Positions 1,674 through 27,876 of a stretch of DNA of 32,964 nucleotides are shown here, piece after piece. The translations under genes were made by a program, and so were the position numbers. Each line of letters starts with the position of its first letter. Position 1 is the first letter of the stretch. Origin of the DNA: Spirochaetaceae bacterium (GTDB lineage Bacteria > Spirochaetota > Spirochaetia > Treponematales > Breznakiellaceae); the NCBI GenBank assembly GCA_031282145.1, contig JAITEG010000172.1:1-32964 (forward strand), written 5' to 3'. The notes beneath the pieces were generated by a model. That model did no database searches, was not told the origin of the DNA, and worked only from the letters and a program-made list of their open reading frames with translations.

Positions 1674-2777
1674 ATGATGAATAGTTGTTTTTTGCTAAAA
1701 AAGACCGGCCTGGGGCCGGCCATACTGCTTTGTTTGACGGCGGCCGCGTGTTTGCCGGGCAAAAATCAGGAAATCCTGCCGGAGCAAAGGATCGCGGAAA
1801 CGGAGATCCTTTCCGCTGCCCCGGGGAAAACCGGGGCCTATACGGTTATCCCGGCTGAGACCGGGGCCTATGCCGCCTTGGGGGAAACCGGGACCTATAC
1901 CGAAGCTCTGGAAGAACTCGCCGAGACGGAGCGGTCCGGTGGTTTTAGCCCGGGGATGGGCTTTACCGAATCAATGCTCCGGGAATGGTCCGGTGATTAC
2001 GGAGGGGCGGTGATCGCCGCTTATAAGGAACTTTCCTGGGCCTATGGCTGCGGCGCCGGGGTGACCAAAGACGATATGACCGAAGGACTGGGGAAGGTCT
2101 TGTCCCTTTACGAGAGCGGCGGGGAAAATTCGGCCCAGGACGGCCTTAGCCTGGGGGAAGAAGCGCGGACTCAAGCCCTGATTGCCGCCCGTGGGGTACT
2201 GGCCTTTCATAACGGGTCATGGACCGAGGCGAGATTGAGCCTGGAAGGACTTGCGGTTGAGGATGAACCCGATTCTTTTGTGCAATGGATGTCGTTGGTG
2301 TGCCGCCTTGAGGAGGGGGAAGGCGTCCGTCAGCTTCTTGCCGCCTATGGGGCTATCCGGGCCCGGTACGACCGGTTTCCCGAATATTGGTATCGGGGGG
2401 CCCGGCATTTTTCCGGGAATATCCGGGGTGAATATGCCGAGCGTTGCATCAACCTGGCCCCTCAGGGGCCCTTTGCGGAGGACTGCCGGGGAATTCTGGC
2501 GGAAACCGTAGGCCTATCTTTTGATGAAGGAAACAGCATCAAGACCCGGGCGGAAATTGAGGAATCAATTATCCGGTCGGTCGCTTCCGGAACCCCCGAA
2601 GTTTTAACGGAACTTTTCGCCCTCCTTTCCCTTCAGGATAATCCCTTCACCCTGTATACCGCCGGAGCCCTGCGGGCCCTGGTAATACAGGAGGATTTCA
2701 GAAACTGGTTTGTCCGGGAAGCGGCCCAAGCCTCGGGGCGTTTGGCGGAACGGCTGCTTTATATTTCCAGGGGGTAA
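1674..2777 (+). CDS. Lipoprotein of unknown function, first gene of the RND operon
   Basis: 367 residues. The N-terminus has a basic KK pair, a hydrophobic stretch and AAAC around Cys26, a relaxed spirochaetal lipobox, so the mature protein should be membrane-anchored. A short low-complexity segment repeats the pattern TGAY/TGTY three times just after the signal. The remainder is alanine/leucine/glutamate-rich and predicted helical, with segments reminiscent of TPR-type pairs, but I cannot assign a family. The start is uncertain. ATGs lie at 1662, 1674 and 1677; GGGGG at 1664-1668 can act as a weak ribosome site for 1674 or 1677, and the signal peptide fits these. The next gene starts 3 bases after its stop. 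A role as an accessory lipoprotein of the downstream pump is inferred from position only. Confidence 0.8.
   Translation: MMNSCFLLKKTGLGPAILLCLTAAACLPGKNQEILPEQRIAETEILSAAPGKTGAYTVIPAETGAYAALGETGTYTEALEELAETERSGGFSPGMGFTESMLREWSGDYGGAVIAAYKELSWAYGCGAGVTKDDMTEGLGKVLSLYESGGENSAQDGLSLGEEARTQALIAARGVLAFHNGSWTEARLSLEGLAVEDEPDSFVQWMSLVCRLEEGEGVRQLLAAYGAIRARYDRFPEYWYRGARHFSGNIRGEYAERCINLAPQGPFAEDCRGILAETVGLSFDEGNSIKTRAEIEESIIRSVASGTPEVLTELFALLSLQDNPFTLYTAGALRALVIQEDFRNWFVREAAQASGRLAERLLYISRG
1827..1898 (+). repeat. Three imperfect in-frame repeats encoding K/E-T-G-A/T-Y
   Basis: ACCGGGGCCTAT occurs at 1830-1841 and 1860-1871 and as ACCGGGACCTAT at 1887-1898, with periods of 30 and 27 bases, both multiples of three. 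Each copy encodes TGAY or TGTY preceded by Lys or Glu. It lies in the linker right after the lipid anchor of the first lipoprotein, a typical place for a variable-length spacer. Confidence 0.75.
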
Positions 2778-2780
2778 AAA

Positions 2781-3428
2781 ATGGGGAAAAAAGCAATGCC
2801 CTTAGGTTTGGTAATCCTGTCGATTTTGGTGATGGCCTGTCATTCCCGGAAGGTGGATGAGGATACTCTCCTGCTCTATGCCCGTTCGGAAGCGGCCTAT
2901 GGGGAAGGGCGGTTTGAGGAGCTTATTTCCCTGCTTTCGGGGGTCCGTTCCTTTACGCCGGCCCTGATCCTGCGGGGTAAGGCGGAATACTTTTCCGGCG
3001 ATTCGAAAGCCGCCGAAGGATCCTTCCGAAGAGCCCTTTCGATCCGGCCGAGCTCGGTGGAGGCCTCCCTCTATTTGGCCCGGTTGCTGCGGGAAAGGGA
3101 GGAACCTGAGGAAGCCGAGGGGATCATCAATACCCTTTTGGAGGATGATCCCGCCAATATCCGGGCCCTCAGACTGGGGGCGGAACTTTACCGGGAAAAG
3201 GGTCCCGCCGGGGAAGGGACCGCCGCGGCCTTACTGGACCGGGCGGTGGAGGCTTCTGCGGAGACAGCCCTGGTTTTTGTGGACCGGGCCCGGTTCCGCT
3301 GGATTGGAGGGAATGGAGAAGGAGCCCTACAGGACCTTCGGAGCGCCAAAAGCCTTCTTCCCTGGGATACCCCCCTGTTCCGGAGTATCGAAAATTTGGA
3401 ATCCGCCATTGAGGAGGCTCACCGATGA
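2781..3428 (+). CDS. TPR-repeat lipoprotein
   Basis: 215 residues. The signal peptide leads to Cys20 in the context LVMAC, followed by helical repeats. The stretch around residues 65-115 (GKAEYFSGDSKAAEGSFRRA, then SSVEASLYLARLLRE and AEGIINTLLEDDP) follows the tetratricopeptide pattern of small residues at positions 8, 20 and 27 and a final proline. At least three TPR units can be recognised. TPR lipoproteins usually act as docking scaffolds on the periplasmic face of a membrane; the partner here is unknown. It starts 3 bases after the previous stop, and its own stop overlaps the next ATG (ATGA), so it is translated within the same operon. The start at 2781 directly precedes a KK basic n-region. 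Confidence 0.82.
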   Translation: MGKKAMPLGLVILSILVMACHSRKVDEDTLLLYARSEAAYGEGRFEELISLLSGVRSFTPALILRGKAEYFSGDSKAAEGSFRRALSIRPSSVEASLYLARLLREREEPEEAEGIINTLLEDDPANIRALRLGAELYREKGPAGEGTAAALLDRAVEASAETALVFVDRARFRWIGGNGEGALQDLRSAKSLLPWDTPLFRSIENLESAIEEAHR

Positions 3429-3925
3429 AAAAGCGCTCTTTTTTCTTTGCCTGCTTTTCCGTATGGGGAAGCCTGGTGTTTCTTTCCGGCTGTCTTTCCC
3501 TGGGGACTTCCCCGGGCAATTCCTGGTCCTCTGAGGACCGGACTAAAATAGCCGGTACCCTGCGGCTCGAAACGGTTACCGTGGATAAGCCCGTGGACAA
3601 GGCTTCGGTGGAGAAGGAGATTCGGGGCAGAGTGCCCCTGGTCTTTCTGAAACGGGGGTACCTCCTGGTATCAGAGGAAGAAACCGCCCAATATCGGGCG
3701 GATATCCGGGCCATTGAACGGGAATATATCGCCGGCTGGAAGACCCGGAGATCCCTCTCGATGGAAGTTTTCATTTGGAAGGATGAGGAAGGGGGCTGGG
3801 ATCCGGTTCCTCTGGCATCGGGCAGGGCTGCGGGAACCGGACAGGCCAGCTTATCCTCATCTCCGGTCACGGATCGTCTGTTGACGACCGCGGTTAAACG
3901 GGCCCTTGGGGCCTTAAAAAAATGA
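3425..3925 (+). CDS. Small lipoprotein of unknown function
   Basis: 166 residues. The N-terminus MKKRSFFFACF and hydrophobic stretch end in a canonical lipobox LSGC at Cys23. The mature part has a small alpha/beta look: RLETVTVDKPVDKASVEKEI, then FLKRGYLLVSEEETAQYRAD, then a strand-rich SLSMEVFIWKDEEGGW. The final segment VTDRLLTTAVKRALGALKK resembles the C-terminal helix of periplasmic proteins that bind or chaperone outer-membrane partners (LptE or DUF4136-like layout). That resemblance is loose. Start and stop both overlap the neighbouring genes by ATGA, which ties its expression to the TolC-like and TPR proteins. Confidence 0.78.
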   Translation: MKKRSFFFACFSVWGSLVFLSGCLSLGTSPGNSWSSEDRTKIAGTLRLETVTVDKPVDKASVEKEIRGRVPLVFLKRGYLLVSEEETAQYRADIRAIEREYIAGWKTRRSLSMEVFIWKDEEGGWDPVPLASGRAAGTGQASLSSSPVTDRLLTTAVKRALGALKK

Positions 3926-5337
3926 AAAAATATGGGGTTTCGGCAATGATATGGAGAAAAATATTTTTTCTGGTTCTCCTTTTTATGGCGGCTTCCGTTC
4001 TTCAGGCTGAACCGGGTATTGGTTTTGCCGAAGCCGCCCTCATGGCGGTGGCCGCGTCGGAGGAGCTTCGGAACGAATACGCCCAACGAAACCTTCGGGA
4101 AGGGGCCTGGATTCTGGGACGGCGGGCCTATTTTCCCCGCCTGTCCTTGAGTGTTTCCGAAGATGATCGGGTCTCCACCATAGGAAACGATTCCTTTTTA
4201 AAAAACTATGGCATCAATCTGGATCAGCTCCTTTGGGATGGGGGAAGAACCGCCATAAGCCGGTCCGTAGAACAGGCGGAACTTACCCTGCGGGGAGCCC
4301 AGCTGGAACGGATGGCCGGGGAAATCGCCGAGGCCGCCCTGGGGGCATATCGGAACGTTCTGTACGTACGGGCCCAACTGGCTATTCGGGATGCCGCCCT
4401 GGAGGCCTTGAGGGAACAGCGGAATATTCTGGTCAGGGAAACGGAACTCGGTCTGGCCCTGCCCGCGGATTTGACCGGGGCGGATCTTACCCTTTCGGGG
4501 GAACAGATAGAGATCCTTTCCCTTAAGATGGAACTGGAGGAGGTGGAACAGGAGTTGGCCGAGACCCTGGGGCTTGAGCGGCTTCCCCCTCTTTTGGAAG
4601 CCATGGATGTTCGTCGGTCTCCGGTATTACCCGGAGAAGCGGAGATCCGTGCCCGGGCCCAAGCCCGGAACCCGGACCTTACCGAAGCCCGGTATGGGAT
4701 AATCAAAAAACAGGCGGAGGCCCGGTATGCCCGCTTATCCTGGATGCCCACCATACGGTTGAACGGAGGATTCAGCCTCAACGGTCAGCGTTACCCCCTG
4801 ACCAGGTATGGCTGGACGGTGGGGCTCACCATCGAATTTTCATCCCCCTGGTTTTCAGGGGGTGTCCAGGGCTCGGCCGGCGGGGAACCGCCCTACGATA
4901 GAAATGCCCGGCTGCAAAATACCCTATCCCCCCTGCCGGAACCCGCTTCGGCTATGACCGGCCGTTCCGCGGATCTGGCCCTTGCCCTGGAACGGAAAAA
5001 ATTTCAGGTGAGTTTTGAAAAGGTGGGCCGTATGGCGGTATTGGCGGCGGAAAAATGCCGGCTCATAAACGGGAAACGGATCCTGGCCCTGGAATCCCTG
5101 GAATTGTCGGCAAAACAGTTCCGCCTCGCGGAACTGCGTCTGGACTTGGGCCAGATCACCCGGCTCGATCTGATGGAAGCCCGGCAGGAATATACCCAGC
5201 GGGAACTGGCCCTGGTGGAAACCGCCATAACCCTCCTGGAGGCGGAACGGGAGGTGGAACGTTTCTTGGATCTCCGGCCCGGAACCTTGGCGGACTTTAC
5301 CGGCGGACATGAATATGGAGATTCCCATGAAGGGTGA
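3922..5337 (+). CDS. TolC-like outer-membrane efflux protein
   Basis: 471 residues with a signal peptide (cleavage probably after LQA near residue 30). The body has two repeated halves of long helices, as in the OEP/TolC family that forms trimeric outer-membrane channels for RND pumps. Typical features are FAEAALMAVAASEELRN near the mature N-terminus, YFPRLSLSVS, LDQLLWDGGRTAISR, RNVLYVRAQLAIRD, LTEARYGIIKKQAEARYARL with WMPTIRLNGGF (second half), and LRLDLGQITRLDLMEARQEY with LLEAEREVERFL near the C-terminus. The inter-half segment around residues 305-345 is rich in Gly, Ser and Pro and looks longer than usual. It overlaps the previous gene through ATGA. An internal ATG at 3946 also fits a signal peptide. 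The next gene begins inside its last codons. Confidence 0.93.
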   Translation: MKKYGVSAMIWRKIFFLVLLFMAASVLQAEPGIGFAEAALMAVAASEELRNEYAQRNLREGAWILGRRAYFPRLSLSVSEDDRVSTIGNDSFLKNYGINLDQLLWDGGRTAISRSVEQAELTLRGAQLERMAGEIAEAALGAYRNVLYVRAQLAIRDAALEALREQRNILVRETELGLALPADLTGADLTLSGEQIEILSLKMELEEVEQELAETLGLERLPPLLEAMDVRRSPVLPGEAEIRARAQARNPDLTEARYGIIKKQAEARYARLSWMPTIRLNGGFSLNGQRYPLTRYGWTVGLTIEFSSPWFSGGVQGSAGGEPPYDRNARLQNTLSPLPEPASAMTGRSADLALALERKKFQVSFEKVGRMAVLAAEKCRLINGKRILALESLELSAKQFRLAELRLDLGQITRLDLMEARQEYTQRELALVETAITLLEAEREVERFLDLRPGTLADFTGGHEYGDSHEG

Positions 5338-6715
5338 TAGTTTTCCCAGGGTATTTACGGGACTAACCACGGGGGCGTTTTTTCTTTTATCCCTGATTCT
5401 GCCGGGCTGCAAAGCCCCTTCGGAACAGGGGGAAACCGAGGCGGTCCGGCAGGTCCGGGGTGTGGTGATTGGGGAACGGAACATACCCCATGAGATCAGC
5501 GGATTCGGGACCCTGTCTTTTCTTAAAAAAGTCGATGTGGCTTCTCCCCAGGACGCGGTGGTGGCCGTGCTTTATTATCGGGAAGGGGATAAGGTCCTAC
5601 CTGGGGATAACCTGGCGCTTTTGGAAAATCCCCAGATTTCCCTGGCGGTGGGCAGGGCGCAAAATACCTTTTCCCAAGCCAAGGCCGCCCTGGACCTGGC
5701 CCGGTCCCGTTTGCTGGAAGGGGAATTCCAGGCGGAAGCCCAACTCCTCAACCTGGAAAAGGCGGAAGCCGAATTGGAACAGGCCCGGAAGGTCCATGAG
5801 GAACAGAAACGGAAACATCAGGGGGAAGAGGCCCTCTATGAAGCCGGGGGGGTTACCGAAGAGGCCATACGGACCGGCCGGTTTTCCCTGGATGCGGAGG
5901 AGGAGAAGCTCCGGCTTTTGGAAAAGGATCTGGAGATCCGCCGTATAGGGTTCCGGCATCAGGATCTGGCCGCCGCGGGACTTCCCCTGCCTAAAAACGC
6001 GGCGGAACAACGGCGTTTATATGTAACCCTGGCCACCGCTACCCTCCGGGCCGAATTCAAGGCTTCCCAAGCCAGTCTTGAGGCGGCGGCTAAGGAACTG
6101 GAATCGGCGAAACTTGCGGAATCGGAACTGGTTATCAAAAGTTCCATGGCCGGAACCGTGGGGGCTCTCTATGTGGAGGCGGGAGAACGGGTCAAACAGG
6201 AGGATAAGATCCTAACCCTGATGGATACCGAATCCCTTTATGGGGTATTTCCGGTACGGGAAGAGGATGCCCTGCGCCTGGAGAAGGGCATGGCCGCCAC
6301 GGTAAGCCTGGATGGAACCGGGGGGACCTATGCGGGCGCTGTGGATTTGGTAGCCCCCATAGCGGACAGTCAGTCGTTTACCTTTTCGGTACGGGTCCTG
6401 CTTTCCCCGGAGAGTATCGCCGGAGGCATGGGGGAAATTCTGCCTAAACCGGGGATGTTTGCCCGGGTTTCCATAACCCTGGGACCTCCCCGGAAGGTTA
6501 CGGTGATCCCCGATTCCGCCATAGTGAATAAAAAAAACAACCGGGGGGTGGTTTTTGTGATCCATGGAAATACCGTTTATGAGCGGGAAATCAATTTCGG
6601 TATATCCCTTGGGGAGGATCGGGAGGTTGAGGCCGGCCTGCTCCCCGGAGATCTGGTGGTGGCGCGGCCTGACGGGGGGTTACGGGATGGGGTATATGTT
6701 TCGGTGGTGGAATGA
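5327..6715 (+). CDS. RND periplasmic adaptor (membrane fusion) lipoprotein
   Basis: 462 residues. The lipobox LPGC at Cys28 anchors it to the membrane, as in AcrA-type adaptors. Domains in order: a half lipoyl motif (about 55-105, with YYREGDKVLPGDNLALLENP); a long alpha-helical hairpin (about 105-260, rich in Ala, Glu, Leu) that reaches the outer-membrane channel; the second lipoyl half (SSMAGTVGALYVEAGERVKQ); a beta-barrel (GVFPVREEDALRLEKGMAA); and a membrane-proximal domain near GVVFVIHGNTVYEREINFGI. The ATG at 5327 is chosen because GGAG (5317-5320) sits six bases upstream. An in-frame ATG at 5309 adds six residues with poor spacing. It overlaps the TolC-like gene by 11 bases. It should bridge this channel and the RND pumps downstream. 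Confidence 0.94.
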   Translation: MKGDSFPRVFTGLTTGAFFLLSLILPGCKAPSEQGETEAVRQVRGVVIGERNIPHEISGFGTLSFLKKVDVASPQDAVVAVLYYREGDKVLPGDNLALLENPQISLAVGRAQNTFSQAKAALDLARSRLLEGEFQAEAQLLNLEKAEAELEQARKVHEEQKRKHQGEEALYEAGGVTEEAIRTGRFSLDAEEEKLRLLEKDLEIRRIGFRHQDLAAAGLPLPKNAAEQRRLYVTLATATLRAEFKASQASLEAAAKELESAKLAESELVIKSSMAGTVGALYVEAGERVKQEDKILTLMDTESLYGVFPVREEDALRLEKGMAATVSLDGTGGTYAGAVDLVAPIADSQSFTFSVRVLLSPESIAGGMGEILPKPGMFARVSITLGPPRKVTVIPDSAIVNKKNNRGVVFVIHGNTVYEREINFGISLGEDREVEAGLLPGDLVVARPDGGLRDGVYVSVVE

Positions 6716-8282
6716 TCCGGCCCTTACCGGAGCCGGAAGGGCGTATCCCCGGCGGACTTTGGTGGATTCCGCCATTTCCCTGCAAAAAATCCGATGGCCG
6801 GGGTTCCTCAAATTGACGGCTTTAACCGGCCTTTTCCTCCTGGGTGCCTGCGGGGTGATCGATTTACGGCCCATTGGGGTAAAGACCATTCCCGGTGAAT
6901 CCTACGGGGTACTGGAGGATTATTATACACCGGTGGTCCTGATTTTTGATACGGAGATGATCGAAACCACCACCCAACAGGTACTTTCGGTGAGTTTTTC
7001 CGGAGGAACAGTGGAAGGGGATCTCCGGTGGCAGGAAAATACCCTTTCTTTTACTCCCATGGCGGGGTGGACCGCCGGAAGGCGTTATACCCTGCGCCTC
7101 ATGGGGGATATCTATTCCGTGGACGGCCGGGAACTCAGGCTGGCCCAATATCTTCCCTTTTTCGCAATCTCCCGGTCCGAGCTTCCCGGGCTTGATTCCT
7201 TTTCCCCCGCCGACGGCGCTTCCGTGGGGGTGACCGAGGAAGAAGGGGGGATCGTGATATTAAAATTCTCCCTCCCCATGGATCGCCGGAGTGTGGAGGA
7301 GGGCTTTGCCCTGGACGGGGTGAGGGACAAAAAATTTGAGTGGGACGGGGATGACCGGATCCTCAGGATCCGTCCCGGCAACCCCCTTTCCCCCTGGACC
7401 ACCTACCATTGGAGCCTGGACCACGCTTTGAGCCGGGAGGGAGCGCCCCTGGCAAAATCCATATCCTCCCAATTTACCACCGACCTTGATCGAACCCGCC
7501 CGGTGGTCCTTGAGGTATTCCCCCTGCTGCGTTCAGATCCCCCGGAAACCGGGGGAGTTTCCCCCGGGACGGCCCGTTTTCTACCCTGGGTACGGACCGG
7601 CGCCGATATAGAGAATGGCCTGGGGGCAGGGCAGGGAATCGGGATTCAATTTAATAAACCCATGGATGAGGAAAGCATGAGGAAGGCGGTCAGACTGGAA
7701 CCATCCCTTTCGGGGACGGTCGAATTATTAAGTCCCGCGTCCCTGGTTTATGTCCCGGACCGGAATCCGGAAGGGGAGACCCGCTATACCCTCATTGTTT
7801 CCGCCGATACCCGGGATAAGAGCGGGCTGCGGATGGGGGAGGATTTTATTGGTTATTTTACCCCGGATATTCCCTTTTTGCGGATCCGTTCCTTATCCGT
7901 GAACGAACAGCCTTCACTGGCGCTGGATGAGGGAATTACTTCCCCGTATTATGCCTTTCCCCTGGAAGGAGTCACCGGAATAACCGGTATCACCCTGGGA
8001 TTTTCCCTTCCCTTTTCAGAGGAAGCTATGGCCGCTACGGTCCTGGAGATTTCCCTGGATCCCTGGTTTCCGGCTTCTATCGGTTCGGCGGTCCTTAAGG
8101 CCGCCCTCTGGTCTTCGGAAGATACCCTTTTTATGGAATGGGAAGGGCTTGAACCGGGAATCCCCGGGGAAGGTCATTTTTACCGGCTCTCTATCCCCGG
8201 TGGTAAAAGCGGTATTACCAATGGCCGGGGTTCCTTTCTGAAAAATACCCAAACTATCTATATGGAGGTTTTTGATTTATGA
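6687..8282 (+). CDS. Lipoprotein with SbsA/Big_5-like Ig domains, copy 1
   Basis: 531 residues from this start. A hydrophobic segment ends in LGAC (Cys55), then come several beta-rich units with the pattern of bacterial SbsA-type Ig-like domains: SPADGASVGV...IVILKFSLPMDRRSVEEGF...TTYHWSLDHAL, and again GIQFNKPMDEESMRKAVRLE...TRYTLIVSADTRDKSG. The PMD..S motif and the closing Y.L.. strand are hallmarks of that fold. The start is unsure. ATGs at 6687 (GGGGGG just upstream) or 6696 leave a long n-region, whereas a GTG at 6762 with GGCGGA five bases upstream would give a normal 30-residue lipoprotein signal. It probably acts in the periplasm or outer membrane. It is a clear relative of the next gene, and such lipoproteins are not part of standard RND pumps. 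Confidence 0.85.
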   Translation: MGYMFRWWNDPALTGAGRAYPRRTLVDSAISLQKIRWPGFLKLTALTGLFLLGACGVIDLRPIGVKTIPGESYGVLEDYYTPVVLIFDTEMIETTTQQVLSVSFSGGTVEGDLRWQENTLSFTPMAGWTAGRRYTLRLMGDIYSVDGRELRLAQYLPFFAISRSELPGLDSFSPADGASVGVTEEEGGIVILKFSLPMDRRSVEEGFALDGVRDKKFEWDGDDRILRIRPGNPLSPWTTYHWSLDHALSREGAPLAKSISSQFTTDLDRTRPVVLEVFPLLRSDPPETGGVSPGTARFLPWVRTGADIENGLGAGQGIGIQFNKPMDEESMRKAVRLEPSLSGTVELLSPASLVYVPDRNPEGETRYTLIVSADTRDKSGLRMGEDFIGYFTPDIPFLRIRSLSVNEQPSLALDEGITSPYYAFPLEGVTGITGITLGFSLPFSEEAMAATVLEISLDPWFPASIGSAVLKAALWSSEDTLFMEWEGLEPGIPGEGHFYRLSIPGGKSGITNGRGSFLKNTQTIYMEVFDL

Positions 8283-9886
8283 AAAAGCGTAAGTTCTTTC
8301 AGGCCGGTTTGTGGTATCCCTGCCGCTCGGTTTTCGTCAGGATCCTGGGAGGGATGTTTTTGTTAAACCTCTTCCTTTCCTGTGATATTCTCAGACAGTC
8401 CCCCTTTGAGGTTACCCACTGGAGTCCCGGAACAGGATACCACGAGGTGCCGGAACACCTGCGGATTTCGGTTTCCTTTTCCCATGATCCGGATGAAGTC
8501 AGCGTGGAACATTCCTTTTCTTTAACCGAGGACGGTTCATCCCTCCCCGGTTATTTTAGATGGGAGGGGCGGACCCTGATTTTTAGCCCCGTTGTTTCCC
8601 TGGAGTTAAACCGGGATTATATGCTGACGATCCTGGAAGACGCCCAGGATCAAAAGGGAATATCCCTGGATAAAAAGTTCGAAGTCCCCTTTACCACCCG
8701 GGAACCGGGAAAACGTCCGGTGGTTCTCTCCGTAGATCCCCAGGATGGGGGAACGGTGCTGGATCCGTGGGGGGAGATCCGTATAGAATTTTCCGAATCC
8801 CCTAAAGCCGTTTCCTGTGTTAACGCCATTTCCTTTAGTCCTTCCATGGGTGGTTCTTGGCGCTTGGAAGCCGATGGCCGCCTGGCGGTTTTTACCCCCC
8901 AGGAACCCTGGGTTATGGGAACCACTTACCGGCTCCGTATCACTCCGGATTTTTCCAGTATCCAGGGACTTACCCTGGGGAAGGAATTTACCGCCTCCTT
9001 TATTGTGGGGAATGACCAAACCCCTCCGGTTTTAATGGCGGCCCATGCCCTGGACCCGGAGGGAAAGGCGGTGATGGAACTGCTCCCGGCGGGAGACGGC
9101 CCCTTGATGGAAGAAAACCTCCTCTGGGAATCCGTTTACCGGCTGGGGCTGGAATTTTCCGAACCGGTGGATACGGCGGATCTCAAAAATCGTCTTACCG
9201 TGGAAGAGGCCCCGGCCTTGAAAATGGAAACCGGGCCGGGATACGCCGATTGGGTGGTTTTTAGTTTTAGTGAAAACCCTGAATATTTAAGTTCTTTCCT
9301 TATTAGAGTACCCGCCGGTTTCAAGGATAAGGCGGGCAATGAAAGCCCCCATGGGGTGGTTTTCCGGATCCGGGCGGATGGTCCCCATTCCAAGCCGCCG
9401 GAATTGATAGGGTTCCGTATACCCATGGCCCCCGGCGGCATTGAGGACAATGGAACCGGGGATGTTCCCCTTTCCCCGGAGCAAATTTACCAGGTGCTGT
9501 CTTTTCCCGTGGAAGAACCCTTCCGGGATTTACCCATCCTTTCCGGGGCGGGCCGGTATCCCTATGTCGAATCAACTCCTACCTGGATAGAACTCTATTT
9601 CGACACCGCGGTGGGGGCGGAAATAGATCTCCTGTCCCTGATGAATCTCTTCCAGGTAGATGCCACCAATAACGCCCTCTCCTTTTTTCCCCAGAGTATG
9701 GAGGCCGGGGGTTTTTCCATTCCCGATCCTCCGCCGGCGTGGGAAGCATATTATCGAATAAACGTCAAAGGGGTCTTGATTAATAACACTAATCCGGGGG
9801 TCGTGGTTTTTCAGATAGCTTCCGGCCTTCGGGATAATTTGGGAAACATAAACTCAAGGGTCTTTCAGCTTCCGCTGTTAAAATAG
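8279..9886 (+). CDS. Lipoprotein with SbsA/Big_5-like Ig domains, copy 2
   Basis: 535 residues. Its ATG overlaps the previous stop (ATGA). A signal peptide leads to Cys35 in the context LFLSC, followed by Ig-like units: THWSPGTGYHEVPEHLRISV...FSHDPDEVSVEHSFSL...GRTLIFSPVVSLELNRDYML, then SVDPQDGGTVLDPWGEIRIE with EFSESPKAVSCVNAISFSPS, and a third unit (GLEFSEPVDTADLKNRLTVE...AGFKDKAGNESP). The order and spacing of motifs mirror copy 1, so the two probably arose by tandem duplication and then diverged widely. The C-terminal 150 residues (from about 385) include a segment with YPYVESTPTWIELYFDTAVG that I cannot assign. Probable periplasmic beta-rich partner or cell-surface protein. Confidence 0.87.
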   Translation: MKKRKFFQAGLWYPCRSVFVRILGGMFLLNLFLSCDILRQSPFEVTHWSPGTGYHEVPEHLRISVSFSHDPDEVSVEHSFSLTEDGSSLPGYFRWEGRTLIFSPVVSLELNRDYMLTILEDAQDQKGISLDKKFEVPFTTREPGKRPVVLSVDPQDGGTVLDPWGEIRIEFSESPKAVSCVNAISFSPSMGGSWRLEADGRLAVFTPQEPWVMGTTYRLRITPDFSSIQGLTLGKEFTASFIVGNDQTPPVLMAAHALDPEGKAVMELLPAGDGPLMEENLLWESVYRLGLEFSEPVDTADLKNRLTVEEAPALKMETGPGYADWVVFSFSENPEYLSSFLIRVPAGFKDKAGNESPHGVVFRIRADGPHSKPPELIGFRIPMAPGGIEDNGTGDVPLSPEQIYQVLSFPVEEPFRDLPILSGAGRYPYVESTPTWIELYFDTAVGAEIDLLSLMNLFQVDATNNALSFFPQSMEAGGFSIPDPPPAWEAYYRINVKGVLINNTNPGVVVFQIASGLRDNLGNINSRVFQLPLLK

Positions 9887-9895
9887 GGTATTTTA

Positions 9896-12800
9896 TTGAA
9901 GGACTTGATACGATTTTGTGTAAATCGTCCGGTAACGGTGATCATGATCATGGCCGCCCTGGTTTTGGGAGGCGGATTTGCCCTTTCGGTACTGCCCTTG
10001 GATAGGCTGCCGGATTTTGCTTATCCCCGGGTTACGGTGGAGACCCTCTACCCCGGAATGGGCGCCGCCGATGTCCGTTCCATCGTTACCATCCCCCTGG
10101 AGGACGCCCTTTCTTCGGTAAAGGGCCTCCAACGGCTGCGGAGCGTTTCCCGGGACGGGGCTTCGGTGGCGGTGCTGGATTTCCGATGGGGGACCGATCC
10201 CAATGGCGCCTCGGTTTTGGTCCGGGAGGCGATTGATTCAGTATATCCAAATCTTCCCCAGGGGGCGAAAAAACCCCTGGTGGTCCCCGGAGATCCCCAT
10301 GAGGAACCCCATAGCATCGTATCGGTATTTTCCCCCGCGGGGGACGGGGTTTTTGCCCGGAATTTGGCGGAATATGAATTACGGGCCCGGTTCAGAAGAA
10401 TAGACGGAGTTGGTACGGTGATCCTGGTGGGCGGGGAAAGCCCTGAGGCCAGGATCACCCTGGATATACCCCGGTCCCTTTCCGGAGGGCTGGGGCCGGT
10501 GGATTTGGCCCAATACCTGGCCACGGAAACGGAAGATATCCCCGCGGGAAACGCCCGGGAGGGGGATAGGGAACTGGTAGTAGTTAGTGCCGGCCGTCCC
10601 GGTTCGGTGGGGGAACTTTCCCAAATTCCCGTACCTGTCGGGCCGGCGCTGGTACGGCTTTCGGATCTGGCGGAAATAAGTGAAGGACGGGCCCGCCGGA
10701 AGAGCCTCTTTCTCTTTAACCAGCGGGACCAGGTAGCCCTGGAAATATACCGCCGTCCCGGCGCCGATCCGGTTAAGCTTTCCCGGGACATCGAAGGGGT
10801 CCTGGAGGAGGCAAAGACCGCTTTTTCCCGGGATCTGGAACTCGATCTGGTATACGATTCCTCCGGCGCCATCCTGGAGGGGGTAAAAAATTTAAGTATT
10901 TCCGCCCTCCTGGGGACCGCCGCGGTTATCGGAACCTTGATCTTTTTTATCCGCCAAGTGCGGTACAGTATCCTTACCGCCCTTTCCATTCCCCTGTCCG
11001 CGGCGGCGGCCCTGGTGGTCCTGGCCCTTACGGGAAGATCCCTCAACAGCATGAGCCTGGGGGGAATCGCCCTGGGGATAGGCCTGGTCTCGGATACGGC
11101 GGTTATCGTTCTGGACCTCCTCCACCGGAATTGTTCCGGTTATACCCGTCCGCCCTTGGGAGAGGAGATTGGGACCTGGGTATCCACCGTATCCGGTTCG
11201 AGTTTTGCCTCCACCATCACCACCGCGGTGGTATTTATCCCCATCGTCTTCCTCCCCGGTCCCCTGGGCGCTCTCTTTGGGGATCTGTCGGTTTCTTTGG
11301 TATCCTCAATCACCGCGGGATGGATCTTTGCCCAGTTCGCTCTGCCGGCCCTTTTCACGATTTTTTATAAATTATCTCCCGGTTCGGACTTAACGCGGAA
11401 AACTTCCCGCCGGTACCGGCGTTTTCTTGCCTTGGGCCTGCGGCACCCCCGGGGGACTCTTTTTTTCGCCTTGAGTTTTAGCCTTGCCGGAGCGTTCGTC
11501 CTCTTTACCCGGCCCGCGGCTTTTGTGTTTCCCGATGAAGTCCGGGAAGTGGAGGTGAGCCTTATTTTTCCCGTTGGTACGGACTTGGAGGCGGCGGGAC
11601 GCTACGGCATACTCCTTTCCCGGGCCCTGTCGGAACTTCCGGGCATAGAAAAAACCTTTGGCCGGGGAGGGGCGGAGGAAGAGGATGTGGGCCGCCGGGC
11701 GGATACGGATTACCGGAAGGAGGAACTCCGTCTCCGGTGTATCCTACAAAAGGATGCCCAGCCGGTCAAGGCCATGGCCGAAATCCAAAAGGTCTTGGGG
11801 GGTTCCCTCCTTTCCCAATTCCCCCCGGGGACGGTGGGAATTGCCGCCTATCCCCAGGACAAGACCGAACGCCTCCTGGGCTTGTCTCCGGGTCATACCC
11901 TTGCGATCCGGGGTAAGGATCGGGAAGAGACCGCTTTCAGGGCCCGGGAGGCGGCGGAACGGGTGAACGCTCTGGCCCGTCCTCTCTCCGTTACGCTGCG
12001 GCCCTCCGGCGCCCGTCCGGAACTCCGGATCTATCCGGACCGGGAGGCCGCCGCTCATCTGGGGATATCGGTGACGGAGATGGCGGAAATGGTTCATACC
12101 GCCACCGAAGGGGTGGTAGCCGCCAGGCTGGAAATTGACGGACGGCCCTTGGATATCCGGGTTTCCGGAGATCTCCGCCGGAATTTTCCAAACCCTGAAA
12201 CTCTGGTGGAGGCGATCCCCCTGGGAGCGGGGGAGGGAGGGCCGGTTTTTTTGGGGGTCCTGGGCAGGGTCGAACAGACCCAGGCGGAGGCGGTCCTGGC
12301 CCGGTTGGACCGGGGGGATGTGATCTACCTGGATGCCCTTCCCCGGCCGGGGGCGGAGGCCGAATTATCCCAAGTTATGGATGAATTGAACAAAACCCCG
12401 GGAATTTCCCGGGCGGATGAATCCGCCTTTATCCGGTACCGGACCTCCCTGGTGGTTACCCTGTTTCTGGTACTGATCCTCCTGTATATGACCATGGGCG
12501 CCCAATTTGAGTCCTTTTTACTTCCCGGGATCCTCATGATAACCATACCCTTTTCCCTTGCCGGCGCGGGTCCGGCGATGCTACTCACCGGGACCGGCCT
12601 TGATTCGGGTTCGATCCTGGGGCTGGTGGTCCTTTTCGGCCTGGCGGTGAATAACGGGATCCTGCTCTACGAGATCGCCGTGGAAAAGATGGGCCGGGGT
12701 CTTCCGGCAGCGGCGGCGGTTTATTCCGGGGCGGTCGAGCGGTTCCGCCCGGTACTGGCTACCACCCTGACCACCCTTTTCGCCCTGCTGCCCTTGGTCA

Positions 12801-12949
12801 TCTCCCCCCTGGGTTCAAGCCAGCATTCCCTGGCATCGGCCATGCTGGGAGGAATAGGCGCTTCGACCCTGCTTACCCTTTTTGCCCTTCCTCCCCTCTT
12901 TATCCCTTTCCTTAAATCGGGGAAACCATCCCAAGAGGGATCGTCATGA
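9896..12949 (+). CDS. RND efflux pump subunit 1 (AcrB/MdtB-like)
   Basis: 1017 residues, the usual RND size, starting at a TTG (LIRFCVNRPVTVIMIM follows) with only a weak ribosome site. Two similar halves, each with one membrane helix, a large periplasmic domain and five or six more helices. Conserved pieces: LPDFAYPRVTVETLYPGM, TIPLEDALSSVKGLQRLRSV, RFRRIDGVGTVILVGGES and, in the second half, TMGAQFESFLLPGILMI. In helix 4 the proton-relay motif reads GLVSDTAVIVL: Asp400 is kept and the second Asp of AcrB is Thr401. In helix 10 AVNNGILLYE has Asn919 where AcrB has its Lys. The clade with VNN and a single Asp is known. It probably pairs with the next gene. Confidence 0.93.
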   Translation: MKDLIRFCVNRPVTVIMIMAALVLGGGFALSVLPLDRLPDFAYPRVTVETLYPGMGAADVRSIVTIPLEDALSSVKGLQRLRSVSRDGASVAVLDFRWGTDPNGASVLVREAIDSVYPNLPQGAKKPLVVPGDPHEEPHSIVSVFSPAGDGVFARNLAEYELRARFRRIDGVGTVILVGGESPEARITLDIPRSLSGGLGPVDLAQYLATETEDIPAGNAREGDRELVVVSAGRPGSVGELSQIPVPVGPALVRLSDLAEISEGRARRKSLFLFNQRDQVALEIYRRPGADPVKLSRDIEGVLEEAKTAFSRDLELDLVYDSSGAILEGVKNLSISALLGTAAVIGTLIFFIRQVRYSILTALSIPLSAAAALVVLALTGRSLNSMSLGGIALGIGLVSDTAVIVLDLLHRNCSGYTRPPLGEEIGTWVSTVSGSSFASTITTAVVFIPIVFLPGPLGALFGDLSVSLVSSITAGWIFAQFALPALFTIFYKLSPGSDLTRKTSRRYRRFLALGLRHPRGTLFFALSFSLAGAFVLFTRPAAFVFPDEVREVEVSLIFPVGTDLEAAGRYGILLSRALSELPGIEKTFGRGGAEEEDVGRRADTDYRKEELRLRCILQKDAQPVKAMAEIQKVLGGSLLSQFPPGTVGIAAYPQDKTERLLGLSPGHTLAIRGKDREETAFRAREAAERVNALARPLSVTLRPSGARPELRIYPDREAAAHLGISVTEMAEMVHTATEGVVAARLEIDGRPLDIRVSGDLRRNFPNPETLVEAIPLGAGEGGPVFLGVLGRVEQTQAEAVLARLDRGDVIYLDALPRPGAEAELSQVMDELNKTPGISRADESAFIRYRTSLVVTLFLVLILLYMTMGAQFESFLLPGILMITIPFSLAGAGPAMLLTGTGLDSGSILGLVVLFGLAVNNGILLYEIAVEKMGRGLPAAAAVYSGAVERFRPVLATTLTTLFALLPLVISPLGSSQHSLASAMLGGIGASTLLTLFALPPLFIPFLKSGKPSQEGSS

Positions 12950-15900
12950 TCCAAAGTTCATCCTGGCTGCAAAAACCCATAGCCGCCCTCTGTGTGATCT
13001 TTGCCCTTACCGCCCTTTCGATTTTTATTATGGCCGGTAGCGGGGATCGGGGAGAAAATCGAAGGGGAAATTCCGGCTATACCATTATTCTGCGGCATTA
13101 CGGGGTGAATGCCCGGGAGATGGAACGGACTGCGGCCATTCCTCTGGAGGATGCCCTTGCTTCCCTTGGGGGGGTCAAAAACCTGGTGACCATCAGTGAA
13201 AACGGGATGGTCCGGGCCTTTGTCCGTTTTGGACAAAAGATTCCCGGCGTCTATGAGGCGGTACGGGAAGCGGCCCAGGGGGTTTATGAGGCATTGCCCT
13301 CCTCGGCCCAGCGGCCGGAACTCCTCTCCTCCGATGATTCCCGGCTTCCCCTCTGGACCGCCGCGGTTTTTAGCACCGACGATGACGCCGCCCTGGGGTC
13401 ATACCTGGAACGGATCGTTAAACCTGCCCTGGAAGCCCTGGAGGGTGCCGGGGAGGTCGAAGTTTCCGGTATCGGGCTCCCCGAAATCGTCGTCGCCCTT
13501 AAACCGGAAGAAGCCGCTTCCCGGGGTCTTGACGCTTCCCATATTGCCGAAGTTCTGGGAAGAAACGATCTCCTTCTTCCCGGGGGATTTATCAAAAGCG
13601 GCGACCGGGATATCCTTATCACCCTGGATGGCCGGTATGAGGACCGCCGCACTTTAGCCGAGGCCCTTATACCCCTTCCCGCAGGAGGGGCGGTCCGGTT
13701 AAAAGATACGGCCCGGCTGTATGAACAAAACCGGGAACCGGAATCATTTTCCCGGCTTAACGGAAAAAGCGCCGCGGTGATCGCCGTCCTTCCCGGAGCT
13801 GACGCGGACCCGGCGAAACTCTCCGGTCTCATCCGGCGGGAACTGGAAAAATTCGCCGATCTGCCCCTGAAATTCGAAGTACTCTCGGATCGGGGGGCGG
13901 AAGAAACCGCCGCTTTTGGTTCGGTATTAGCCGCCGCCTTTCAGGGAGCCGCCGCAGTGGCCCTCTTGACGGCCCTTCTCGGTAAGACCAGGGGTTCCGG
14001 CTTTGGGGTTCCGGGGAGACGGGTTTTCCTGGCCCTGATTTCCGGATTGACGGTTCCCCTGATCTGCCTCCTGTCGGCCGCTCTGTTATCCCTCCTGGGT
14101 TTTTCCCTGGACCGGGGACTGCTGGCAGGACTTTCCGCCGGGGTCGGCGCCGCGGTGGACGCGGCCATCCTCAGTTCCGAAGGTCTGGGAAAAGCCCGGA
14201 CCATTGAAGAAGGACAGGAATCCCTTAAGGAACTGCACATTCCCCTGATATCCGGTTCGGTTACCACTATAGCCGCCCTCCTGCCCCTCATCGCCATGGA
14301 ATCCCTGGCCGGCGGTATCGGTACCCTGGCATGGGCCATCGGAACCGTTACTTTTCTGGCCCTTCCGGCGGCCCTGGTCCTGATTCCACCCCTCCTCCTG
14401 TGGGCCCTAAAAAAAGGTCCCGGCGCTATTCCCCAGAGAAGGGGTTTCCATAAAAAACAGGGTACTCCCAGGGTTAAGACATATAAAAAGCAGGGTTTTT
14501 CCACCGTGTTTTTCGAGGACTGGGGCTTGTTTTTGGTAAAAATAAAAGAAAGGCTCAGCCGGAAGGGGCTGCGGCTCCTGGCCGCCCATCTCCGGTTTTG
14601 TACGGCCCACCCATACGGCCCCCTGGTGATGTGGGCGCTTATTTCCGCCGGGGGCATTACCGCCCTGGCCCTTGCCGGAGCCGATGTGGGTGCCGAAAGC
14701 TCCGGTACCTCCCTGTATGCCCAGGTTGAATTTGAAGGGGGGCTCCGGGCGGAAGAAGCGGATCGGCTCCTCGCGGTTTACGCGGAAACGCTAAAAAGGC
14801 ATGACGGGATAGGGACAGTACAAACCGTGGCGCGGACCGCTTCGGGATCGGTCCTCATAACCTTTGATCCCCGGATCATCCCCGCCGATACCCTGCGAAA
14901 CCTGGTTAGAACCCGGGAAATACCCGGCGGTTTTGTGTATATTCCGGAAATGTCCTCTATGGAACGGATTTGGGAGATCAAGATCACCGGGGATGATGAC
15001 GGAGGCTGCCGGGAACTGGCGGAAGCCGCAGCCCGGATCTGCGGAACCCTGCCCCTTATCCGGGAAACGGTCCTGAACTTTAAAGAAGGAAGTCCACGGC
15101 TTACCCTGGTTCCGGATCGGGAACGGCTCCTAACCGCGGGGATTCAATTTTCCCAACTGGCCGATAGGATCCGGCGGGGGATCCACGGTCCGGTGGCCTA
15201 TAAACGAATAGGCCCTCAGGGGGAAACCGATGTCCGTATCCGGGGCCTGGGGAACGCCGCCCTTTCCCGGGAAGAAATCCCGGGACTACTGGTTGGCCCG
15301 GGGACCACCCTGGAGGCGGTAAGACTTGATTCCCTGGTAAAAAAAACCATCTACCCTGAGACGGAACCTTCCGGCATCAGACGGGAGGATCGCCGCCGGA
15401 TAGCATCTCTATCAATCAGGACCAAGCCCATGGATCCACGGAAGGTCCGGGATCAGGTTATGCCGGCACTGGGCGCCATGGAACTGCCCCCGGGTTATAC
15501 CCTGGAATTTGACCGGGAGGCCATTGCCGCCGCGGAAACCCTTTCGGGAACGGTTTTTTGGTTTTTATTGGCCCTTATCTTCTGTTATATGGTGATCGCC
15601 GCGGAGAACGAATCCTTTGGGATTCCCCTTGCGGTACTGTCGGTAGTTCTCCCTTCCCTTGCAATCCCCGCCCTGGGCATGGCCGCCGCCGCCATGCCGA
15701 TCACCGCCTCTGCCGCCTGCGCTTTTGTCGCGGTGAGCGGTATGGCGGTAAACGCATCGGTGTTGATCACCGATGAAATCCGCCGCATCCCTCGGTGGAA
15801 AAAAGACAAAAGAGCCCTCGCCGCCGGCTTATACCGGGCGGTCAGGAAAAAACTCCCCCTTCTTTTCGCCACCAGCGGTACCACCATCAGCGGGGCGGCG

Positions 15901-16080
15901 CCCTTTCTTTTTTTAAAAGAGGAAACCAATTCCCTGATCCGAAACCTGTCGGTGGTAACCGTCCTGGGGGTTGGGGCTTCTGTTTTTGTCGGATTGTCGT
16001 TACTACCCGCGTTACGGGTGTGTTGTTCAGCGTTGTTTTTTACCTTTCATCCCCAAAGGAAGCGTCCGGAAATAACATGA
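12946..16080 (+). CDS. RND efflux pump subunit 2, divergent
   Basis: 1044 residues. Its ATG overlaps the previous stop (ATGA). Same two-half RND plan: an N-terminal helix, TAAIPLEDALASLGGVKNLV, ALEGAGEVEVSGIGLPEIVV, and six-helix blocks in each half. It is clearly more derived than subunit 1. The first periplasmic domain has a Ser/Gly/Arg-rich insert right after helix 1. Helix 4 reads SAGVGAAVDAAILSS, with a single Asp405 and alanine at the partner site. Helix 10 reads GMAVNASVLITDEI, with Asn936 at the AcrB Lys site. An A+T-rich segment with imperfect repeats lies between helices 6 and 7 (about residues 499-536). Two unlike subunits encoded in tandem suggest a heteromeric pump, as in MdtBC, with this subunit perhaps specialised. 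Substrate unknown. Confidence 0.92.
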   Translation: MIQSSSWLQKPIAALCVIFALTALSIFIMAGSGDRGENRRGNSGYTIILRHYGVNAREMERTAAIPLEDALASLGGVKNLVTISENGMVRAFVRFGQKIPGVYEAVREAAQGVYEALPSSAQRPELLSSDDSRLPLWTAAVFSTDDDAALGSYLERIVKPALEALEGAGEVEVSGIGLPEIVVALKPEEAASRGLDASHIAEVLGRNDLLLPGGFIKSGDRDILITLDGRYEDRRTLAEALIPLPAGGAVRLKDTARLYEQNREPESFSRLNGKSAAVIAVLPGADADPAKLSGLIRRELEKFADLPLKFEVLSDRGAEETAAFGSVLAAAFQGAAAVALLTALLGKTRGSGFGVPGRRVFLALISGLTVPLICLLSAALLSLLGFSLDRGLLAGLSAGVGAAVDAAILSSEGLGKARTIEEGQESLKELHIPLISGSVTTIAALLPLIAMESLAGGIGTLAWAIGTVTFLALPAALVLIPPLLLWALKKGPGAIPQRRGFHKKQGTPRVKTYKKQGFSTVFFEDWGLFLVKIKERLSRKGLRLLAAHLRFCTAHPYGPLVMWALISAGGITALALAGADVGAESSGTSLYAQVEFEGGLRAEEADRLLAVYAETLKRHDGIGTVQTVARTASGSVLITFDPRIIPADTLRNLVRTREIPGGFVYIPEMSSMERIWEIKITGDDDGGCRELAEAAARICGTLPLIRETVLNFKEGSPRLTLVPDRERLLTAGIQFSQLADRIRRGIHGPVAYKRIGPQGETDVRIRGLGNAALSREEIPGLLVGPGTTLEAVRLDSLVKKTIYPETEPSGIRREDRRRIASLSIRTKPMDPRKVRDQVMPALGAMELPPGYTLEFDREAIAAAETLSGTVFWFLLALIFCYMVIAAENESFGIPLAVLSVVLPSLAIPALGMAAAAMPITASAACAFVAVSGMAVNASVLITDEIRRIPRWKKDKRALAAGLYRAVRKKLPLLFATSGTTISGAAPFLFLKEETNSLIRNLSVVTVLGVGASVFVGLSLLPALRVCCSALFFTFHPQRKRPEIT
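14441..14553 (+). repeat. A+T-rich in-frame segment with imperfect tandem repeat in RND subunit 2
   Basis: Two copies of a unit of about 22-26 bases follow each other: GGGTT..CATAAAAAACAGGGT (14442-14463) and GGGTT....CATATAAAAAGCAGGGT (14471-14496). Then comes a T-rich and A-rich stretch to about 14553. Base composition is visibly poorer in G+C than the flanking gene. It encodes a basic, lysine/glycine-rich loop (HKKQGTPRVKTYKKQGF) in the cytoplasmic link between helices 6 and 7. The reading frame is kept throughout. It may be an inserted repeat element tolerated at a permissive site, or a naturally diverged loop. Confidence 0.55.
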
Positions 16081-16172: not shown

Positions 16173-19100
16173 ATGGTATCTTTTCACTTTTTTTTCAAAA
16201 GGATTATCCCGTTGGCGGGGGTCCTGTTTTTTGGTATCGGTTTTGTGTTCGGGGAAACAAAGCCGGATCTCCGGGGGTTTAATTCCGGGGTGTTTGACTA
16301 TCATTTCCGCAGGGCGGACCGGGAGATCACCCCTGAGCGGTGGATGGCCGAAGCCCGGCAGGGGATGGTCATGGCCAGGCATGCCTGGGAAGCGGCCGCG
16401 GTGGAACTTTACGGGGATAAGGTTCTGCTTGAGGAAGCGGGGAAAACCCTTGAAGCCTGGAGTGAGGCGGAGTTGGAGCAGCGTTTTACCCAATGGCTCC
16501 TCAGGCGTTTTTTCAGCGTGGGAATAACGGAACAGATGGCGGCTTCGGCCCAGGAGATCCGGAAAGCCAATTTATCCCTGGTGTATCATTTGGATGAAGA
16601 GGGGAAGATCCGGTATGATGAGGAAACCGGCGATCCCCTGGTGATCCGTCCCGATGAAGCCGGGGAATATATGGAAGGGGATCAAAAACAATGGCGGAAA
16701 AACGCGGAAGAAATTATCGACGCCGGGGCCATTCGCTATGAGACATATCTTACCTCCCTGTTTCCGGAACTTCTGAGTTATGTCCCGGAAGAAAATCGGG
16801 AAGCCTTTGAGGGGAAACTGCGGGACATCACGATTAAAGCGGTATCGGGCAGGCAAAAGGAATTTGAAGCCCTGGTCGCCCGGGAAGAACGGTTTTTTGT
16901 TGCCCAAAGAACCGGGGACGTGTGGAGCCTGCGCAGAAAAAGTGAATCGGCGGCGGCAGCTATGATTACCGCCCAATTAATAGAAGAAACCGAAGCCCTC
17001 TGTGTTCAGGGGATAGCCGCCCTGGAAACCCGGATAGAGGCAGCCGAGACCGGTAACGGCGATTTGATCCTGGCGGGTTCCGAATGGCTCGAGGCCTATC
17101 GGGAACAATTTGAGCGGGGCCTTAAGGCGTGGACCGAGGCGGAGGAACGGTTTTTTGTGCGCCGCATAGAATGGGAACAGGAAGCGGGACAGTATTATTT
17201 GGAAGGGGAAGAAGCCTGGCGTAACGCCTTTAATCAATTTGAGCAGGAAAGGCGGAATTGGGAAGCCAAGGCGAAAACCCTTTTTGAGTCCGGGGAGGCG
17301 GTTTTTAAACGGGCGTCGGAAAACCTCGAAGCCGCCATTGCCGGGGCAAAGGCGGAATTTGAACAGGATCTCTTGCTCCGCGCCGAAGTCGGCGCCGGAC
17401 GGGCCAAAGCCTGGGTGGATACCTACATCACCTGCGGTTCCGTGGTAGCCGGCGCCCAGGAGAACATCAATTTCTGGCTCGATCAATACGGCAAAAACGC
17501 CCCCTCCTTGGCGGGCGGGGGATTTTCTTCCTGGATATCCGCGGAACTGATCGGCCATTGGCAGGCGGTACTGGCCTCCTATGAGCAGCGGTACAGCGCC
17601 GGGGACCAGATGAGCTTGCTGATAAAAAATATTATCGCGGGGAAAACAAATAAATCCCAGGAGCGGGAAGCCATTGAACAATTAGAAAAAGGGGGAATCA
17701 TTTTAAGCGCTTCCTTTAAGACTGCCTTGGAACTAAAAAACTGGTCCGACCTCTATGATTCCTATATGGACAAGGCTAAAGCCGCCCGGGATGCCCTGAT
17801 CAATGATTTTAATATGGTCATGGGTACGGGGTATCTCACGGATATCCTGGCCGAAGGCGCGGTAAGTGAAGACTTTAACCTGGACGAATATCAGATAGAA
17901 CTCATCCGGGCAAAAGCGGTGGCCGGTTATTGGGAAAAGCGAAAAGCCATTGCCCAGGGGATAGTTTCCTATGCGGAAGAATTAACCGCCGGCCGTATGA
18001 CCGACAGTGAAGGCATTGCCGCCTGGGAACAGGCGAAACAAGCCTATGATGATGCGCTTAATCGGTATGAAACGGATCTTTCCCGGTTAAGCGCCGCGGG
18101 CGCCGGGGTAAAGGATGCCCAGGAAGCCCTGGACCATGCGGCGGCGGCGCTGCGGGAAGCGGAAAGTAAACTGGAAGAAAAAAATCAGGCCTACGCGATA
18201 CTCATGGCCGCCTATGTGTCCGGACGGAATGATTTTATCCTGAATGACCTGGTAGCAAAATATGAAGAACTCCTGCGAAAGTATAAGCTGTTGACCACCG
18301 AAGGGGACGGCGCGGCATACATCCGTTATCTGGAGCGGGCCTATGAACTTGGATTTGCCCAGGAACTGGAAACGGCCGGACAAATGTTCAAACAGCTCAT
18401 CCTGGGGGGAGATGGAATTGGAAAATCCCTGGCCGCCCTAACGGATAGGGCCTCCCAAATCAAGGTGTTTGAAGCGTATCAAATCATACCGGATCATATT
18501 GAAAAATTCGGCCTTGAGGAGGATGATCCTTTTTATACCGTGATTCGCGAACTGTTATCCGAAAAACAGGAAAAACTCGCGGTTGCCGCGGATCAGGAGG
18601 AAATACAGGGCCAGTATAATAACCTCATCAGCGCCATGATAAAAACGGCCAAAGCCCAGGCACAGCTTCAGGTAGAAATCAGGATAAAGGCCTTGGATCT
18701 TCTGATCAGTAATTCAACCATGGATTGGTATTTTCAAGTCCGGGGCTATGAACCGGAACCCCTGGACCGGGAATTTTTTTCCGAACAAGGGCTTGAAACC
18801 TGTCTCAACAACGATGTGGAAAAGGATAGCCGGGCTTTGTTAAAGGCCCGCCTTGCCCTGGAACTGGAAGGATTATCCTCGGTTGCCGGGGAAGATGCGG
18901 GAAGCGGCCGGGGAAAACTCCTCTCAAGCTTCTGTTTTGTCAATTCCGCGGAAGCTGCGGAAATTCTTGGAATCCTTACCGCGTTTCAGAACCTTCTTGT
19001 TTCTGTTGAGGATAAGGACTTTGCGGAATATTATGAGACCCTGGAAAACGCCGCCCGGTCACAGGAAGTGGTGGCGTGGTTTCTAACCGGGGGTTCCTGT

Positions 19101-26811: not shown

Positions 26812-26826
26812 GGACAGGAGTAATTC

Positions 26827-27840: not shown

Positions 27841-27858
27841 GGCGCCCTTCCCGGCGCC
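27841..27858 (+). other. GGCGCC-CTTCCC-GGCGCC hairpin between etfA and the acyl-CoA dehydrogenase
   Basis: Two copies of the self-complementary hexamer GGCGCC flank a six-base loop directly after the etfA stop. The next bases (ATAATTAAGG) include the ribosome site of the next gene and no T-tract. It is more likely an mRNA stability or processing element that tunes the ratio of ETF to dehydrogenase than a terminator. Confidence 0.45.
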
Positions 27859-27876
27859 ATAATTAAGGAAAGAACC

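Follow-up and report, generated by a model that had tools for sequence, protein, structure and literature searches.

Contact-dependent growth inhibition (CDI; CdiB/CdiA/CdiI) and Rhs systems are built around a very large secreted protein, in which a conserved body carries a swappable C-terminal tip; a small partner gene lies directly downstream and arrays of orphan tips and partners may follow (PMC3150448, PMC3482391). Orphan cdiA-CT/cdiI modules are a recognised part of the anatomy of these loci (PMC3150448). A 32,964-nucleotide stretch of Spirochaetaceae DNA (JAITEG010000172.1; here called the window, and contig C117 of a 268-contig genome) encodes a giant protein with a body and tip of this kind, the product of g10, directly behind nine genes (g1 to g9) for a paired resistance-nodulation-division (RND) pump, a TolC-like channel and several lipoproteins; the downstream partner genes and the arrays are found in its relatives, not in the window. 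We put at roughly 60% the probability that this cassette is a machine for the export or display of the giant, polymorphic-toxin-like protein.

The giant departs from CDI and Rhs proteins in the means by which it might travel. Searches of Pfam and NCBIfam found in it none of the known trafficking domains (FHA/TpsA, Rhs, VgrG, WXG/LXG, SpvB, MuF; listed in PMC3482391), and no CdiB-type transporter was found in the cassette; instead, the giant is linked to an RND-TolC-lipoprotein cassette. The TANFOR-domain toxins of Bacteroidetes offer a second parallel, as a class of large polymorphic toxins that is specific to its lineage and has an immunity gene downstream, but their neighbourhoods are reported to be enriched in proteins secreted by the type 9 secretion system (PMC7073777), whereas here it is the RND tripartite cassette that is constant. 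Among pumps, MdtABC-TolC likewise combines two RND permeases with an adaptor and TolC, and MdtB is the best PDB match of the first permease, RND1; the cassette differs in having five further lipoproteins and the giant, and in the loss of two residues of the proton relay. In MacAB-TolC, a TolC pump does export a polypeptide that Sec has delivered to the periplasm, the enterotoxin STII, although that pump is powered by an ATP-binding cassette (ABC) transporter (PMC8277102). No report of a system joining an RND pump to a giant protein was found in the open-licence literature searched.

g10 (16173-25868, + strand) starts 93 bp after the gene for the second permease, RND2, and encodes 3231 amino acids with a signal-peptide-like N-terminus; all signal-peptide calls reported here are heuristic. 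The original prediction had closed the unit at position 16080 with nine genes. The giant belongs to it and is the best clue to its function, and the operon unit is one of at least ten genes. No convincing + strand intrinsic terminator was seen in the 93-bp gap, a scan that counts as weak evidence; the promoter and terminator scan as a whole was uninformative, promoters falling below and terminators modestly above the shuffled background.

The physical linkage of giant and pump is widespread. Where at least 1.5 kb of sequence was available beyond RND2, the giant lay less than 1 kb after it in 46 of 57 loci. In five clusters it is divergently oriented yet still adjoins the cassette (L160, L161, L173, L176, L177), and it also adjoins the cassette in L228, L236, L238, L239 and L241. 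Co-occurrence was assessed in 392 genomes by Fisher tests that carry no correction for relatedness. The giant is present in 79 of them and a strong match to g7, the second immunoglobulin (Ig)-like lipoprotein (searched with profile A7), in 91: both occur in 77 genomes, the giant only in 2, g7 only in 14 and neither in 299 (p = 3e-64). One of the two giant-only genomes is represented by a 137-amino-acid frame. For RND2, at a strict threshold, the corresponding counts were 52, 27, 13 and 300 (p = 2e-32, kinship again uncorrected), the lower overlap probably reflecting a tighter cut-off and a query of greater divergence. In the neighbourhoods examined, the giant had no further secretion component as a constant companion. 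It is this combination of co-inheritance, adjacency maintained through rearrangement and the lack of any other constant partner that argues for export or display of the giant by the cassette.

The cassette itself recurs across the Spirochaetota. When the window proteins were compared by tblastn with loci around RND2 orthologues, the same nine genes were found in the same order in most genomes of the same family, and most of the nine were recovered in members of family f5. A scan of contigs based on an RND2 alignment yielded 72 loci, of which 71 are spirochaetal by title. Matched genes were colinear in 69 of the 71 related loci, which puts the arrangement far outside what chance would give; the possibility that the gene order was peculiar to one genome, which would have weakened the idea of a dedicated system, is clearly not borne out. 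The order is fixed near the window, as originally proposed, and gives way in distant families to rearrangement with constant membership. These divergent clusters were reached through a weak g1 homologue picked up with a profile, and in them the Big_5 genes may precede TolC or follow the RND genes (the latter in L228 and L239), and the giant or g1 may be divergent. Cassettes with an adjoining giant occur in families f27, f29, f47, f49 and f59, and g1 homologues adjoin the pump across the order. This conservation upholds the view of the locus as a specialised envelope machine and not an ordinary efflux operon. Most of the genomes are fragmented assemblies, and the absence of a gene is therefore weak evidence; part of L253, masked at source, lay outside the reading.

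Several variant loci were encountered. In genome G012 (L054/L124) the cassette is intact except for the adaptor gene, which is missing from its place after TolC and before the first Big_5 gene. Genome G022 carries a divergent TolC-adaptor-Big_5-Big_5-RND-RND cassette (L057:7000-19500; 24-33% identity), with no g1 to g3 detected on the contig. g1 homologues are present in L166, L171 and L172, with no pump cassette in the surrounding sequence retrieved, and in the variant clusters L105 and L127 just g7, RND1 and RND2 were detected, with no giant alongside. The giant of the complete genome G033 is divided between two open reading frames (ORFs; L051:15793-17997 and L278:3-5570) and may be disrupted.

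Within the giants, conservation is unevenly distributed. The body can be aligned over about 2900 residues, with identity and occupancy falling at the end. The bodies of 33 giants form a single BLAST cluster, while their last 230 residues fall into 14. Among these tips, Pfam recognises M23 six times, M15_4 twice, and CHAP and DUF261 once each; other tips look YkuD-like or papain-like by eye, without a profile match. Compared with CDI and Rhs, the recognisable tips here are mostly wall-active. Upstream of the tip in the window giant (24700-25100, + strand) is a conserved region with the pattern HEAYRxG...E...AVxGH, together with a YDSxxDYWxL linker; its motif reads HEGTH in L096 and L115, and the region may be a zincin-like releasing protease. 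The window tip itself (25170-25865, + strand) recurs within this set in just two close relatives, L058 and L060, and matches nothing by sequence in Pfam or the PDB, but its conserved Cys and YHGHIG motif suggest a resemblance to an NlpC/CHAP enzyme. In overall design the giants resemble polymorphic toxins.

g10 matched no family in Pfam, NCBIfam or PADLOC, and a known anti-phage defence system was set aside for want of a PADLOC match. Structure models of both ends gave no PDB fold match below E 0.3: the N-terminal 700 residues were modelled as long helices (mean predicted local distance difference test score, pLDDT, 74), and the C-terminal 752 residues were modelled poorly (mean pLDDT 55, about 30 in the tip). 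An ESAT-6-like PDB sequence match of the N-terminus (E 0.011) was taken as chance. A phage tape-measure protein, suggested by long helices and a C-terminal hydrolase, was rejected by judgement, since the giant carries a signal peptide and has no tail genes in its vicinity.

By sequence the giant resembles TIGR04388 (Lepto_longest), an NCBIfam family of giant spirochaete proteins. An N-terminal stretch of 76 columns aligns, at residues of about 4-78 in the window giant (hhalign probability 86%, E 4.8e-6), and TIGR04388 matches occur within the cassette-linked giants of G155 and G187. The giant was not accepted as a member of the family, as it scores below the model cut-off and the window's genome yields no match; its kinship is distant and confined to the N-terminus. 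The shared stretch has a W...G...A...WE pattern that might serve as an export signal. At L240 a TIGR04388 gene adjoins an RND-TolC-Big_5 cassette. The cassette adjoins a TIGR04388 giant in G094, whose family we take to be Leptospira-like from the name of the model, and with this the proposed tie to spirochaetes lacking typical lipopolysaccharide falls away.

What follows the giant is also patterned. Downstream sequence of 350 bp or more was available for 45 non-redundant giants, and 39 of them have a same-strand ORF starting between -93 and +120 bp from the giant. By a crude rule, 36 of these 39 followers have a signal-like N-terminus, compared with 166 of 554 background ORFs (30%). Tips that resemble each other tend to be followed by partners that do so too (16 of 38 pairs, compared with 17 of 703 where the tips are not similar; p = 5e-14). 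Partner domains include SH3_3, F5/8-type (PF25302) and FGE-sulfatase. PF25302 or FGE-sulfatase is present in the candidate immunity proteins at L265:2300-3262, L273:8550-9587 and L276:6157-7071, and would be unusual for immunity proteins. Arrays in which body-plus-tip fragments each have a small gene of their own lie downstream in L261, L264, L271, L276, L277 and L287, and a tip with a 321-amino-acid partner that is an orphan in L264 forms the active pair in L265.

The nine cassette genes were confirmed as ORFs lying head to tail on the + strand, most junctions overlapping or nearly touching, in agreement with the original prediction. Its identification of TPR, TolC-like, adaptor, two Ig-like and two RND proteins also agrees with Pfam and NCBIfam, which assign no family to g1 and g3. 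The cysteines of lipobox-like motifs were read directly off the sequence. g1 (1674-2777; ORF 1662/1674-2777) is a lipoprotein without a family (TAAAC), g2 (2781-3428) a TPR lipoprotein (TPR_19, 3.8e-9; VMAC) and g3 (3425-3928) a small lipoprotein (LSGC), the least conserved member of the cassette and undetected in several relatives. g4 (3922-5337) is the TolC-like outer-membrane channel (OEP, 2.1e-26), which has no lipobox, and g5 (5309-6715) a lipidated periplasmic adaptor of the HlyD/RND_mfp type (RND_mfp, 6.3e-43, over the cut-off; LPGC). g6 (6687-8282; Big_5, 1.9e-16; LGAC) and g7 (8279-9886; Big_5, 9.5e-26; FLSC) are the Ig-like lipoproteins. Although the ORF of g6 extends upstream to 6564, a lipoprotein start at 6687, giving a short overlap with g5, is probably the true one. 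g8 (9896-12949) is RND1 (ACR_tran, 1.5e-155) and g9 (12946-16080) the divergent RND2 (ACR_tran, 2.3e-66). Channel, adaptor and permease are thus encoded together, as in a standard tripartite RND efflux pump. The locus does not qualify as type 1 secretion, in which the inner-membrane engine is an ABC transporter, as its inner-membrane components are RND permeases.

Both permeases have the full ACR_tran architecture, but the AcrB-type relay of D407, D408 and K940 is intact in neither. g8 retains the equivalent of D407 and has Thr in place of D408 and Asn in place of K940; g9 likewise retains the first Asp, with Ala and Asn at the other two positions. The retained Asp of transmembrane helix (TM) 4 is present in 42 of 42 RND1 and 38 of 39 RND2 sequences, the second Asp being replaced, and Asn occupies the position of the TM10 Lys in 40 of 42 and 38 of 39, respectively. 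The loss of the second TM4 Asp, together with Asn at the K940 site, marks both RNDs as a distinct class.

In the mechanism that we infer, the giant would be delivered to the periplasm by Sec through its signal peptide, and RND1 and RND2, with the lipidated adaptor and TolC, would then move it across the outer membrane or hold it there. The two Ig-like lipoproteins, the TPR lipoprotein and the others would assist this step. They could also stabilise the non-lipidated TolC; by analogy, YbjP, a lipoprotein partner of TolC in E. coli (PMC13082787), is a lipoprotein beside a non-lipidated TolC, and may act in this way there. The C-terminal tip, which is exchangeable and typically an enzyme active on the cell wall, would act on neighbouring cells, while the gene directly downstream would supply an immunity protein, periplasmic or a lipoprotein, to shield the producer. 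Taken further, the Spirochaetota would own a secretion system of a type not described before, powered by paired RNDs, served by TolC and dedicated lipoproteins, and exporting giant, tip-swapping, wall-targeting antibacterial toxins; on that broader claim we are evenly balanced.

A number of points weigh against the cassette being the exporter of the giant. We know of no RND tripartite pump that exports a protein. The loss of the D408 and K940 equivalents in both permeases calls energy coupling into question. The nearest precedent, the ABC-type MacAB-TolC, has cargoes of up to about 10 kDa (PMC8277102), whereas the giant is about 350 kDa. In some loci (L222-L226 and others) the giant lies apart from the cassette, although the genomes of L222-L226 all have strong g7 matches. 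Genome G042 has, at L175:1354-18308, a cluster of g1, g2, TolC, adaptor, both Big_5 genes and the giant without RNDs; accessory genes parted from their pump would count against a dedicated system, and this cluster is a case in point. In the same genome, L052 has an RND pair with no giant detected in the following 1.6 kb. Finally, no immunity-like gene follows the giant in the window or in its sister genome G003. Directly 3' of the window giant (25954-29622) are etfB, etfA and an acyl-CoA dehydrogenase, as read from their ORFs, and etf genes likewise follow the giant in the sister locus, L282. No second copy of the pre-tip region, and no orphan tip module, was found in the window's genome.

Some of these observations would be explained if the pump exported small molecules, such as lipids, wall fragments or drugs, in the same process that the giant serves, with the giant leaving the cell by another route. 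Every characterised tripartite RND pump that we know of transports small molecules or metals, and the complete ACR_tran architecture of both permeases fits such a role, as does the separability of giant and pump seen in the unlinked giants and in L175. Set against this, the phylum-wide co-occurrence of giant and cassette is almost perfect, the two adjoin one another despite rearrangements, and in the neighbourhoods covered the giant has no alternative secretion component as a constant partner. Small-molecule export is a serious alternative, but to our minds an unlikely one. Of the functions guessed at in the original prediction, protein export is retained here, while lipid or glycolipid export found no positive evidence in the form of a supporting gene or family.

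The giant might also be a scaffold for remodelling the cell's own wall, with a repeatedly replaced catalytic domain and with followers that act as regulators and not as immunity proteins. The wall-active nature of the recognisable tips (M23, M15, CHAP) is in keeping with this, as is a window giant that has no adjoining immunity candidate. It is nonetheless improbable, since orphan tip arrays with their own genes and the co-variation of tip and partner are typical of toxin/immunity loci and would be unexpected of a housekeeping enzyme. That the locus is an ordinary multidrug or metal efflux operon, whose unrelated neighbours have been kept by chance, appears more remote still. g4, g5, g8 and g9 do match standard efflux families, but nearly all members have changes in the residues of the AcrB-type relay, and the ten-gene membership is kept across many families, a conserved linkage that refutes ordinary efflux as a full account.

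If export of the giant is indeed driven by the RND pair, the transport part of the system would be of a new kind, and the secretion of very large proteins across two membranes would be added to the roles of the RND superfamily. What is annotated as a multidrug efflux operon would turn out to deliver a phylum-wide antibacterial weapon, and this would account both for giant spirochaete proteins of unknown function and for the extra lipoproteins encoded beside the pump. It would also provide a route to the study of antagonism among spirochaetes where they live crowded together, as in the termite gut.
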